A stretch of DNA of 37,201 bases from a virus. The stretch's first letter is position 1. Every line of letters starts with the position of its first letter. The stretch is from positions 1 through 37,201 of IMG/VR virus record IMGVR_UViG_3300049225_000354, one strand, 5' to 3'. Below, in pieces: positions 14,606 to 18,235 of the stretch. The translations under genes were made by a program, and so were the position numbers. The notes under the pieces are model-generated. The model did no database searches. It saw only the letters and a program-made list of their open reading frames with translations, and was not told the DNA's origin.

Positions 14606-14820
14606 AAGACGGCGCAATGATTTTTGATGGATGCGATAATGCCATTGTCGGCACCAACATTGACGGGACGCTCGTTTACGACTATGAACTGCTGATCGAA
14701 GTTTTTATTGACGAGCAAGACATGTCGCTTGATGAAGCAAGGGACTGGGTCAACTTTAACGTAATCGGGTTGCTTGGAAATGACGGTTCTCCATCCATTA
14801 GAATGCCAGAAAGTCTATAG
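14602..14820 (+). CDS. Small acidic conserved phage protein, 72 aa
   Basis: Unrecognised acidic protein (FDGCDNAIVGTNIDGTLVYDYELLIEVFIDEQ, with MSLDEARDWVNFNVIGLLG). It overlaps the upstream stop as ATGA and the methyltransferase gene by about 40 nt, so it is translated within the same operon. Confidence 0.7.
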   Translation: MKDGAMIFDGCDNAIVGTNIDGTLVYDYELLIEVFIDEQDMSLDEARDWVNFNVIGLLGNDGSPSIRMPESL

Positions 14821-15559
14821 CGTAGGCAGTTTGTTTTCTGGTATCGGTGGACTCGAATTGGGTCTGTCTTGGACGAAGCGTTTCGCACCGGCCTTTTTCG
14901 TGGAGAAGGATGAATATGCGCGTAAGGTACTTAGAAAGCACCACCCTGTCACGCCAATTGAGAAAGATGTTGTCAGGTTTCCCTACCGTCCGATTAAAGA
15001 CTGGGAATGTGACATCCTCGCAGCGGGATTCCCTTGCCAAGACATCTCCACAAGCGGGCCTAAAACAGGACTGTCAGGAAAAAAGTCAAGCCTGTTCTTT
15101 GAGGTCATTCGCGTGGCTAGATTGCTCAGACCCAGAGGCATATTGCTGGAGAACGTGGCAACAATGCTTGATCGAGGAATGGACGAGGTACTCTGGTCGC
15201 TTTCCGAAATCGGGTACGATGTTGAATGGCACATTATATCATGCGAATCCGTTGGTGGATCTCACAAGCGACCCAGAGTGTTTGTCATGGCCTACCCCAG
15301 CGGCGCACGAAGCAAGGCTGGGATATCAGAAGAGACATCGCGGAGCAAAGGGCATACAGGAATCCCTTACCACTGTCGTAATCAATCGTCTGGGTGGACG
15401 GGAAGCAGTCACTGGGCAACTGAACCCGATGTGGGTCAGTTGGTTGATGGGTTTCGAGACAGGGCATGTCAACTTAGATGCCTCGGAAACGCAGTAGTGC
15501 CTCAGTGCGCTGAGATTATTGGTTATCGGTTTGCTCAGATACTTGACTCTCTGCATTAG
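14780..15559 (+). CDS. C5 cytosine DNA methyltransferase
   Basis: Complete C5 methylase of 259 aa. Motif I is SLFSGIGGLELGL (SAM binding). Motif IV GFPCQDIS carries the catalytic Cys. Motif VI is GILLENV and motif VIII is SHKRPRVFVMAYP. The C-terminal segment TEPDVGQLVDGF...CLGNAVVPQ corresponds to motifs IX-X. The recognition region is short, as in phage enzymes. ATG 14780 is preferred, with TTG 14774 upstream. It methylates phage DNA, probably to escape host restriction. Most of the gene from about 14967 to 15497 is simultaneously open in the +1 frame and encodes recognisable protein there (see next entry). The 3' end overlaps a convergent minus-strand gene by 44 nt. Confidence 0.92.
   Translation: MTVLHPLECQKVYSVGSLFSGIGGLELGLSWTKRFAPAFFVEKDEYARKVLRKHHPVTPIEKDVVRFPYRPIKDWECDILAAGFPCQDISTSGPKTGLSGKKSSLFFEVIRVARLLRPRGILLENVATMLDRGMDEVLWSLSEIGYDVEWHIISCESVGGSHKRPRVFVMAYPSGARSKAGISEETSRSKGHTGIPYHCRNQSSGWTGSSHWATEPDVGQLVDGFRDRACQLRCLGNAVVPQCAEIIGYRFAQILDSLH
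14967..15497 (+). CDS. Overprinted ORF inside the methyltransferase gene, phage 'AKTSP...WPTP...LNPxWVxWLMGF' family
   Basis: In the +1 frame relative to the methylase, an uninterrupted reading frame encodes DSLAKTSPQAG, then YSGRFPKSGTMLNGTLYHANPL, LSWPTPAAHEARLGY and QLNPMWVSWLMGFETGHVNL. I know this order (AKTSP, W/FP+SGxMxxGxxY, WPTPxA, LNPxWVEWLMGFPxG) from phage proteins annotated as methyltransferase-associated. Chance conservation of four motifs in order is unlikely. ATG 14967 with GAGAAAG upstream is the best start (176 aa); the frame is open back to 14847. Function unknown. Either this is a true overlapping gene or a family created by overprinting of C5 methylases. Confidence 0.6.
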   Translation: MLSGFPTVRLKTGNVTSSQRDSLAKTSPQAGLKQDCQEKSQACSLRSFAWLDCSDPEAYCWRTWQQCLIEEWTRYSGRFPKSGTMLNGTLYHANPLVDLTSDPECLSWPTPAAHEARLGYQKRHRGAKGIQESLTTVVINRLGGREAVTGQLNPMWVSWLMGFETGHVNLDASETQ

Positions 15560-15806
15560 CAATTGCTTTATCAACCAACGCTGCGGCCCCAACCTTAAGT
15601 GCTGACCTTGGGAGCATCCTTAAAGGCGAGGGAAGCATGTTTTTCTGCTGGACAAGCCTCTGAACAATCACCAATTTGTTTGCCTTGCACCATTCGATGC
15701 CATTGTCATCCATCTTGCGTTTCCAGTTGTTGCAACCACAACCTCTGGTTTGCCTGACAACCCAGTCTGGTATTAGCTTCCCTAGTTCTGTCCCTACTCC
15801 ACTCAT
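15516..15806 (-). CDS. Conserved small phage protein with CGCxxW motif, 96 aa
   Basis: Contains GTELGKLIPDW, GCGCNNWKRKMDDNGIEWCKANKLVIVQRL, a pattern seen in small phage tail-end proteins; the clustered Cys (GCGC...C) may bind metal. It starts TAATG-coupled to the 809-aa tail protein. Its 3' end overlaps the convergent methylase gene by 44 nt. Function unknown. Confidence 0.7.
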   Translation of the reverse strand: MSGVGTELGKLIPDWVVRQTRGCGCNNWKRKMDDNGIEWCKANKLVIVQRLVQQKNMLPSPLRMLPRSALKVGAAALVDKAIANAESQVSEQTDNQ

Positions 15807-18235
15807 TACGGCCCCTCCCCACTTGGCTCACCACCTGACTCACCACCTGACTCACCACCTGACTCACCGCCTGACTCACCACCTGACTCACCACCTGACT
15901 CACCGCCTGACTCACCACCTGACTCACCGCCTGACTCACCGCTTCCAGGTTCGCACTGACAGGCCACGGTCTGGATTTGCTTCTCGTCCCATTGTCCAGT
16001 TGCCGCTGCATCAGGATTGACTGGTACGATCCCTGCGCTGCCATAGTCTTGCTGACAATCACCCGCTGGACCTCCACAAAGGACACTGGGAAGGTTGACG
16101 CCTGCAAAGACATTAACGGACCAAGTCACGCTAACCTGATACGTCGAGAATGGACAAGATGCCGTACTCGGCTCAACACACATTGTTCCGCTCACGACCA
16201 AAGAGTTGGTTGGACCATCAGAGTTAAGTTGAACCGTAAAGCTAGCACAGCAACCAGTTGTGCTGCCTAACTGAAAATTGCTCATGCCACCACCCCATTG
16301 ATTGTTGTTGTCGGCTGGGTCGGGTACGTTCTGCCAAGTAAGGTTAAACCCGCTAAACTCAAACTGATCAGAGCATTCGGCGCAATCGGAGCACTCAGGA
16401 CATTCTTCACCCTCCAAGAAAACGCCACCCAACTCCGCACACTCCGACTGAGTGACTCCAGGCATTGGCCCATCATCAGTGCAGCAGCATCCACAAGGTT
16501 CGCAACACACTTCGGCTTGAATTGGTTCATCAGCGGCATAACTGCAGACATTAACAGTTGCGCGAGTGACGGAAAGAAAGTCTTCATTGCACCCTTCAGA
16601 ATCTTGCGGTCTGCTAACTGATGTTACGACTTGAAGTGGCATCAGCGGTGGGTAAATCGTGTTGTCCTGTGTAATTGCTGGACAACTTTCATTGTCACCA
16701 AGGACTCTTATGTGCTTTCTTGTTTTGTATTGAAGTCCGCAGTCGGCAACGTAAGTCATTAGCTGATCTGCTGATCCATCTTTCTTGCCGACCACTTCGT
16801 ACTTAACAGCCTTTCCGTACATTGCAGATTCGGTTGAAAACACATAGTAGTTCTGATCATTTGGGTCCCAAAAGGCAAATCCTTTAGATCCGTTTTTTAA
16901 ACAATCAATAGGCAAGCAGGGATGCGTTTGAATGTGATCGTTAATCCCCTGCGCTGGATTATCGGGGTCGTCAAAGTACGTTTCTGGATTTTCGCCTTCA
17001 AAGTTTTCCGATGAATGAAGCCAATTTCCCGTTGATTCTTGGTAAGTTGCGCAGACCCATCTGGCTATTGGGTTTTGAACGTCAACTATATGCCACTCGC
17101 CTGTCCGAGTCCCAAGTCCACTTATATACGGAACACATCGATTGTCAGCGTTTTCCAACCTAGATGGGTAAGAAACTCTTTCAATTATGGCCCAACCTTG
17201 ACGTGCAGAAAACCTGTGCGGGTTGAGTGCATTGATTCTGTATTCCGCTGCCCCACCCTCGGGGTCGGGAGTGACCTGAAGTTCTTCAGGGAAGTCCACA
17301 TAAGGCCACTCGCTGGCAAACGAACTGTCTGGGAAAACCCGCAAGCTTTTAACCTCAGTGTCGTCTTCCCCTCTCGGCATTGCATCGTAATCGTCAATGG
17401 AAACTCTCATCCGGTTTACAGACTGAGTGCATTGCTCGACCTCCCACCTTGGATAGCACTGACTGCCTGTGTTGCAATCGTTTTCGCAATCAAAGTATTC
17501 GTCTAGGATTCCGTATGTCATCACGGCATACCCAACGCTACCCCCAGCATGCAGCATTTGGTACATGTCTGGGTTCTGGCCTTGCAGGGCGGTGAAGTTA
17601 TCAGCACCAACCGCATGGGCAAAAAGTTTTCTTGGGTCATGAACAAAAATCTGTTCGTTGTACTCAAGCCCCTCGTTTCCAAACTGATCTAAGACGTATG
17701 CGATAGCGCGTCCAGTGTCATTAAAACTGGTTTTAAGCCGAAACCTAACTCGTTGCGATTGAGGTGCATCTACTACAAAAAGAACACCTCCGAATACTGC
17801 GCAAAACGAAATTGTATTTTTAGGAATTGGGCGAGGAAACGTGTTGTAGACGTAGTATTCAGCATCACCGTAGCTATTTCCATCCGCTGCCCCTGCGCCG
17901 GTCTGTATAACTTCAACATCCACAAGCTGAAAATCTTCTGGCAGTCCTTGCCTACTTCTTGGATACGGCTTGTAAATCTTGCAGCGTTCAGGCGAAACCG
18001 CCGCCTGCATCCTAACCTGATTACCATCATCAATTTCTGGAACCGCAGCGGGGATCTCCTCTGGGGAAATGAATGCATACAGTTCCATATCGGTGGCAAC
18101 CTGCCTGCCTTGATTAAACTCACCAAGACCATGCTGCAACACATCTTCGGTTGGGTAACCGGAGATCAAGTCTTTTTTTGCAAAGTCGCCGAGTTGCCTC
18201 GTAACGTCTTTGCGCGAAAATCCGTAGAGTGTCAT
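15806..18235 (-). CDS. Large tail-associated protein with SGGE repeat tail, 809 aa
   Basis: Follows the tape measure and the 372-aa tail gene, the place of distal tail or tail-tip proteins. It is beta-rich with many cysteines (VCCEPCGCCCTDDG; CPECSDCAECSDQF near residues 600-650) that could form zinc or disulfide knots. The last 45 residues are nine perfect SGGE repeats. The N-terminus (SRKDVTRQLGDFAKKDL) is helical. It resembles no family I can name. It is probably a structural tail or appendage component with a flexible acidic tail. Confidence 0.65.
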   Translation of the reverse strand: MTLYGFSRKDVTRQLGDFAKKDLISGYPTEDVLQHGLGEFNQGRQVATDMELYAFISPEEIPAAVPEIDDGNQVRMQAAVSPERCKIYKPYPRSRQGLPEDFQLVDVEVIQTGAGAADGNSYGDAEYYVYNTFPRPIPKNTISFCAVFGGVLFVVDAPQSQRVRFRLKTSFNDTGRAIAYVLDQFGNEGLEYNEQIFVHDPRKLFAHAVGADNFTALQGQNPDMYQMLHAGGSVGYAVMTYGILDEYFDCENDCNTGSQCYPRWEVEQCTQSVNRMRVSIDDYDAMPRGEDDTEVKSLRVFPDSSFASEWPYVDFPEELQVTPDPEGGAAEYRINALNPHRFSARQGWAIIERVSYPSRLENADNRCVPYISGLGTRTGEWHIVDVQNPIARWVCATYQESTGNWLHSSENFEGENPETYFDDPDNPAQGINDHIQTHPCLPIDCLKNGSKGFAFWDPNDQNYYVFSTESAMYGKAVKYEVVGKKDGSADQLMTYVADCGLQYKTRKHIRVLGDNESCPAITQDNTIYPPLMPLQVVTSVSRPQDSEGCNEDFLSVTRATVNVCSYAADEPIQAEVCCEPCGCCCTDDGPMPGVTQSECAELGGVFLEGEECPECSDCAECSDQFEFSGFNLTWQNVPDPADNNNQWGGGMSNFQLGSTTGCCASFTVQLNSDGPTNSLVVSGTMCVEPSTASCPFSTYQVSVTWSVNVFAGVNLPSVLCGGPAGDCQQDYGSAGIVPVNPDAAATGQWDEKQIQTVACQCEPGSGESGGESGGESGGESGGESGGESGGESGGESGGESGGEPSGEGP
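15826..15945. repeat. 12-bp tandem repeat encoding SGGE
   Basis: Nine consecutive copies of GACTCACC[A/G]CCT (plus strand), with partial flanking copies, encode SGGE on the minus strand. Copies differ only at A/G in position 9 and at the edge, so the array is young and likely to vary in copy number. Confidence 0.9.

Follow-up and report, generated by a model that had tools for sequence, protein, structure and literature searches.

A gene for a DNA cytosine-5 (C5) methyltransferase in a phage genome raises the question of whether its DNA also encodes a second protein in another reading frame, and if so, what that protein has to do with the methylase. Long gene overlaps on the same strand are rare, and annotation programs suppress such genes. 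An earlier note on this DNA had proposed that two protein families share the gene, either through a true overlapping gene or through historical overprinting of C5 methylases. The window, that is, the whole stretch of DNA analysed, is the 37-kb IMG/VR virus record IMGVR_UViG_3300049225_000354, which carries phage genes for head, portal, terminase and tape-measure proteins.

The two frames and their motifs

The methylase frame, here called alpha, lies at 14780..15559 on the + strand, as do all the features of the gene described below. From the ATG at 14780 it encodes 259 amino acids, and a second in-frame start, a TTG, is found at 14774. The product of the nested +1 frame, here called beta, lies at 14967..15497. 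From a GTG at 14847 its frame is open until the stop codon at 15497, and the ATG at 14967 gives a protein of 176 amino acids, in keeping with the earlier claim of at least 176 open codons. The four peptides quoted from this frame (SLAKTSP, GRFPKSGTMLNG, SWPTPAA and LNPMWVSWLMGF) are all present, and FPCQDIS of the methylase and SLAKTSP are indeed encoded by the same DNA.

Searched separately, as the earlier note had suggested, the two translations led to different profiles. Alpha matched PF00145 (E = 4e-40) and phrog_363 (E = 3e-58), and its identity is also supported by an AlphaFold model and PDB fold matches. Beta belongs by profile to phrog_1008 (E = 1.8e-20 to 4e-20), which was matched by all 40 beta rows; its identification also draws on synonymous-shuffle tests and on DNA identity at the start site. 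No Pfam or NCBIfam family matched beta above the cut-off, and searches against PDB sequences gave chance matches only, such as a glycolipid transfer protein (E = 1.3). Both frames are intact in hundreds of phages and bacteria. Among the relatives that can be cultured are Mycobacterium phage ShroomBoi (L003) and Synechococcus phage S-H1 (L007).

The C5 frame had been credited with all catalytic motifs. Motifs I (LFSGIGG, 14831..14851, read from the translation), IV (FPCQ with the catalytic cysteine, 15029..15040, the same DNA reading SLAKTS in beta), VI (ENV, 15149..15157) and VIII (HKRPRVFVMA, 15263..15292, where the alignment with M.HhaI ends) do occur together in the alpha chain, as in PF00145, and motif X (LGNAVVPQ, 15482..15505), assigned from a weak profile match, follows in the same chain, with the beta stop falling inside it. 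However, motif IX is absent from alpha. The region EPDVGQLVDGF, previously read as motif IX-X, is not motif IX; the IX-like segment is in the +1 frame, as LNPMWVSWLMGF (15420..15455), and was recognised by its profile match to canonical C5 enzymes. Ahead of it, beta has a target-recognition-like zone from WPTPAAHEARLGYQ to SLTTVVINRLGGREAVTGQ (15288..15419), assigned on the grounds that the substitution phase follows beta there, together with the score of the C-terminal half of beta and the pLDDT of alpha.

The alpha and beta profiles were compared, using hhalign, with 41 aligned canonical C5 enzymes. Alpha matched over motifs I-VIII (E = 4e-53) and weakly at X (E = 0.0035). Beta matched only at motif IX, again weakly (E = 0.0015, hhalign probability 17%), with RLTPxECxRLQGFPD aligned against qLNPtWVEWLMGFP; a reversed-beta control gave E = 0.91. 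The weak match of beta is the exact complement of the motifs of alpha. Because the motif IX-like segment sits in the +1 frame rather than in the chain that carries I-VIII, alpha by itself falls short of a complete canonical C5 member. In Streptomyces phage Samy (L308) and Mycobacterium phage TinaFeyge (L311), alpha goes no further than motif VIII; the target-recognition region, EWLMG or EWMMG (motif IX) and IGNGVV (motif X) follow in the beta frame.

Downstream of the gene, on the - strand of the window, an 809-aa ORF (15806-18235) has no PHROG match at E 1e-5 and ends in ESGG repeats, with a DNA repeat at about 15820-15940.

Selection on both frames

Three sets of loci were mainly used, collected with the alpha profile from viral contigs (L063-L142) and with the beta profile from viral contigs (L143-L222) and from bacterial genomes (L223-L302). 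A beta match lay exactly in +1 to an overlapping alpha in 280 of the 303 fetched loci and nine loci had alpha only, while no stand-alone beta gene, that is, beta without alpha, was found among the 303.

As a null model, synonymous codons were shuffled within each alpha gene, which preserves both the encoded alpha protein and the codon usage of the gene. Among 170 non-redundant loci, 169 had a real +1 score higher than any of the 50 shuffles. Across the 170 loci the shuffles had an average of 3.5 stops in the +1 frame and the real sequences none, a difference that is partly selected because beta matches were taken from stop-free stretches. The window itself scored 247 bits, compared with a shuffle mean of 93 and maximum of 117, and its shuffles averaged 3.8 stops. 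The two halves of beta were also scored apart, with 100 shuffles each, in the window and in loci that had not entered the profile: the C-terminal half beat all shuffles in 48 of 49 cases and the N-terminal half in 35. In the window, the halves reached z = 9.6 and 6.7, respectively, the C-terminal half scoring 89 bits where the null averaged 8. These nulls rule out +1 conservation that is due to chance or forced by codons. The shuffles ignore shared ancestry, so their scores may be inflated by relatedness, a weakness from which stop counts and substitution phase are free.

Stops were counted zone by zone in loci picked by alpha alone, with the zones defined on alpha, and counts were also made without a beta filter; a control set, L053-L062, fell outside the motif rules and was left out of the counts. 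Relative to the null, the density of +1 stops was 0.97 in the first half of the stretch between motifs I and IV, 0.53 in its second half and 0.07 between IV and VI. From motif VI to 25 codons before X, there was not one +1 stop in about 6,200 codons, and at and after motif X the ratio was 0.9-1.3. No comparable depletion was seen in the +2 frame, and low-GC loci showed the same +1 depletion. The randomly placed +1 stops in homologues that the earlier note had named as grounds for refuting the overlap are decisively absent from both the shuffle comparisons and the stop densities, and the shuffle tests and zone-wise counts lend strong support to its proposal of a true overlapping gene. The overlap of alpha and beta is not chance.

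The converse holds for alpha. Shuffling the synonymous codons of beta in the target-recognition/IX zone introduced about three alpha-frame stops per locus, whereas the real alpha was open across this zone in 74 of 75 non-redundant loci against 7.0 expected, these loci having been filtered for an overlapping alpha. With the overlap filter off, only three of 139 beta-seeded loci had an alpha stop. Given the 74 of 75 against 7.0, alpha is therefore kept open in a region where it has no recognisable motif, which is consistent with a need to reach motif X.

The phase of substitutions was followed in 132 pairs of relatives, which are not fully independent, as some members are shared and some loci lie on the same contig. 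Upstream of the overlap, divergence at alpha codon positions 1/2/3 was 0.16/0.10/0.50; over motifs IV-VIII, it was 0.17/0.11/0.30, with the third-position value dropping from 0.496 to 0.302. Between motifs VIII and X, the pattern changed to 0.43/0.33/0.43, and after X it was 0.21/0.14/0.49. In close pairs, variation between VIII and X falls mostly at alpha position 1, which is the silent position 3 of beta (0.16/0.02/0.07 for the window against L011 and 0.16/0.05/0.00 for L003 against L211). Over motifs IV-VIII, alpha leads and beta adds constraint, and over VIII-X beta leads. Since substitutions there follow the beta frame, alpha is a passive reading between VIII and X. Within these boundaries, both frames are maintained by selection.

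A putative two-polypeptide enzyme

AlphaFold models were built from alignments of the window and the collected loci only. Over motifs I-VIII and close to the C-terminus, the pLDDT values of alpha mostly exceeded 90; they dropped to 38-53 for residues 176-213, which lie inside the beta-coded zone, so that alpha is predicted to be disordered over most of the target-recognition-like zone. The best PDB fold matches to the model were M.HhaI and M.HaeIII over about 170 columns, suggesting that alpha folds like the large domain of these enzymes. Beta alone gave no confident AlphaFold fold (pLDDT 58) and was left out of the fold search.

Signals for separate expression of beta are enriched. Of 157 loci, 122 have an ATG from which the +1 frame is open into motif IV, compared with 58 expected, and 60 loci have a Shine-Dalgarno (SD)-like 4-mer upstream of it, compared with 27.9 expected. 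The window and L011 do not differ in the DNA surrounding ATG 14967, and the ribosome-binding sequence at this start is poor (GAGAAAG).

Taken as a whole, the locus is best read, with a probability of about 80%, as a putative two-polypeptide C5 methyltransferase in which a single stretch of DNA is read in two frames. Alpha would provide the cofactor and catalytic motifs I-VIII as well as motif X, crossing the target-recognition/IX zone as an open but presumably disordered linker. Beta, started internally at ATG 14967 in frame +1, would carry motif IX and the region for target recognition. Judging by homology and substitution phase, the C-terminal half of beta appears to be methylase sequence whose frame no longer agrees with that of alpha, and its N-terminal part appears to have been overprinted on motifs IV-VIII. 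The two polypeptides would associate, beta acting in trans as the source of motif IX and of target recognition, and could methylate the phage DNA, probably to evade host restriction.

The idea that C5 methylases were overprinted thus seems to fit motifs IV-VIII, where alpha would be ancestral, but not VIII-X, where beta appears to be methylase-derived rather than a new protein. Similarly, both frames are real, as had been proposed, but the two "families" appear to be subunits of one enzyme, because none of the fetched loci has beta only and the Samy beta carries the target-recognition region, IX and X past the end of alpha.

A different and rather unlikely reading is that beta is real but has a function of its own, as a regulator, chaperone or anti-restriction factor, and that its overlap with the methylase is incidental. 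The lack of a Pfam or NCBIfam family for beta would fit this, and so would a group of enzymes related to that of Brochothrix phage BtpYZU01 (L322-L400, GC 0.42): their alpha, with both IX and X in its own frame, makes up a complete C5 enzyme, yet the N-terminal part of the +1 product is still conserved. Of 40 such loci, 36 are free of +1 stops over motifs IV-VIII, where the expectation is 0.25; in many, the +1 frame closes some 34 codons past VIII, and SLSDILE..V.EKYFLS is a frequent ending. The same openness despite an in-frame IX/X is seen not only within this group (e.g., L322, L326 and L332) but also in L303, L305-L307 and L310. This also counts against the two-polypeptide reading: since alpha of the BtpYZU01 type has its own motif IX, supplying IX cannot be the sole function of the +1 product, and the N-terminal part of beta may do something besides carrying this motif. 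However, an independent function leaves unexplained that none of the 303 loci has beta without alpha, that the only IX-like segment of the gene lies in beta, correctly placed between VIII and X, and that motif X is also in the beta frame of Samy and TinaFeyge.

A broader suggestion, held tentatively and at somewhat less than even odds, is that a +1 partner over IV-VIII is old and general in at least two large mobile C5 clades, including low-GC phages with an otherwise complete alpha. The overprinted N-terminal part of beta would then have its own function, and the overlap would be among the most widespread long same-strand overlaps in prokaryotes.

Programmed ribosomal frameshifting could instead fuse motifs I-VIII of alpha to the +1 target-recognition/IX zone as one enzyme, which would bring I-VIII, target recognition and IX into one chain in canonical order. 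This is very improbable: two frameshifts would be needed because motif X returns to the alpha frame, the +1 frame is open from before motif IV, far upstream of any useful shift site, and +1 starts and SD sequences are enriched. Least credible of all is a by-product of the C5 protein and its codon usage, with wrong-frame annotation mimicking a family: some +1 motifs are forced by alpha, shuffles still score about 54 bits and many +1 ORFs of high-GC phages are annotated as methylases, but this reading is contradicted by the synonymous-shuffle nulls and substitution phase, by equal stop depletion in low-GC loci and by the ordinary +1 stops among relatives of a Klebsiella phage enzyme (L401-L433; ratio about 0.9, with 0 of only four non-redundant loci open).

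Several loci depart from the common arrangement. An Actinomycetota MAG (L271, 3305-4440) has, downstream of a full alpha/beta pair, a partial second copy that has kept beta and the alpha motif X region and lost motifs I-VIII, possibly a spare recognition subunit. In L036 and L037, alpha is interrupted between VIII and X and beta is open, possibly representing a three-piece or decaying enzyme. L024 and L025 (positions 1-1778) carry a long insert between VIII and IX, and both of their frames stay open over about 580 codons. Mycobacterium phage Ochi17 (L001, 1130-1889) has a frame change relative to ShroomBoi by which alpha becomes the annotated genes 73 and 74 and beta is split as well.

If the two-polypeptide reading is correct, the annotation of many "orphan" phage C5 methyltransferases probably covers only half of an enzyme, and alpha expressed alone may yield an inactive or unspecific protein. 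The locus also offers a tractable natural case of one gene becoming two overlapping genes, in which comparison across hundreds of phages and bacteria finds both frames open and labour clearly divided.

Relation to known systems

The alpha/beta overlap was not found described in the literature covered, in which subscription journals are thinly represented, so that earlier notice is possible. The phrog_1008 label, "DNA methyltransferase", says nothing of a nested frame or a partner. Out-of-frame HNH insertions are known from actinobacteriophage methylases, in ShiLan and in the cluster F1 phage Pacc40 (PMC11855218). These, too, are proteins concealed out of frame within phage genes for DNA methylases, but they are homing endonucleases present as insertions (in ShiLan, in the third frame), whereas the +1 frame here overlaps the methylase motifs themselves.

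The small polypeptide of M.EcoHK31I is nested in an alternative reading frame. In this two-polypeptide C5 enzyme (YGGCCR), the large polypeptide has motifs I-VIII and X and the small one has IX, and the recognition domain is predicted to reside in the large polypeptide (PMC3404938). Alpha resembles that large polypeptide in having I-VIII and X and lacking IX. However, substitution phase assigns the recognition zone here to beta, in whose frame the VIII-X region evolves. Because the zone is placed in the other polypeptide there and the systems were compared by description, only a similar way of working is suggested, not membership of the EcoHK31I type. The other relevant system is the split C5 enzyme M.AquI, whose smaller polypeptide comprises the distal target-recognition part and motifs IX and X (PMC3404938). 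The window would share with it the division into two polypeptides, with target recognition and a IX-like segment in the small one, but differs in having motif X in alpha, so that beta does not combine IX with X, and in the nesting of beta. The loci of Samy and TinaFeyge are, by the same comparison, AquI-like.
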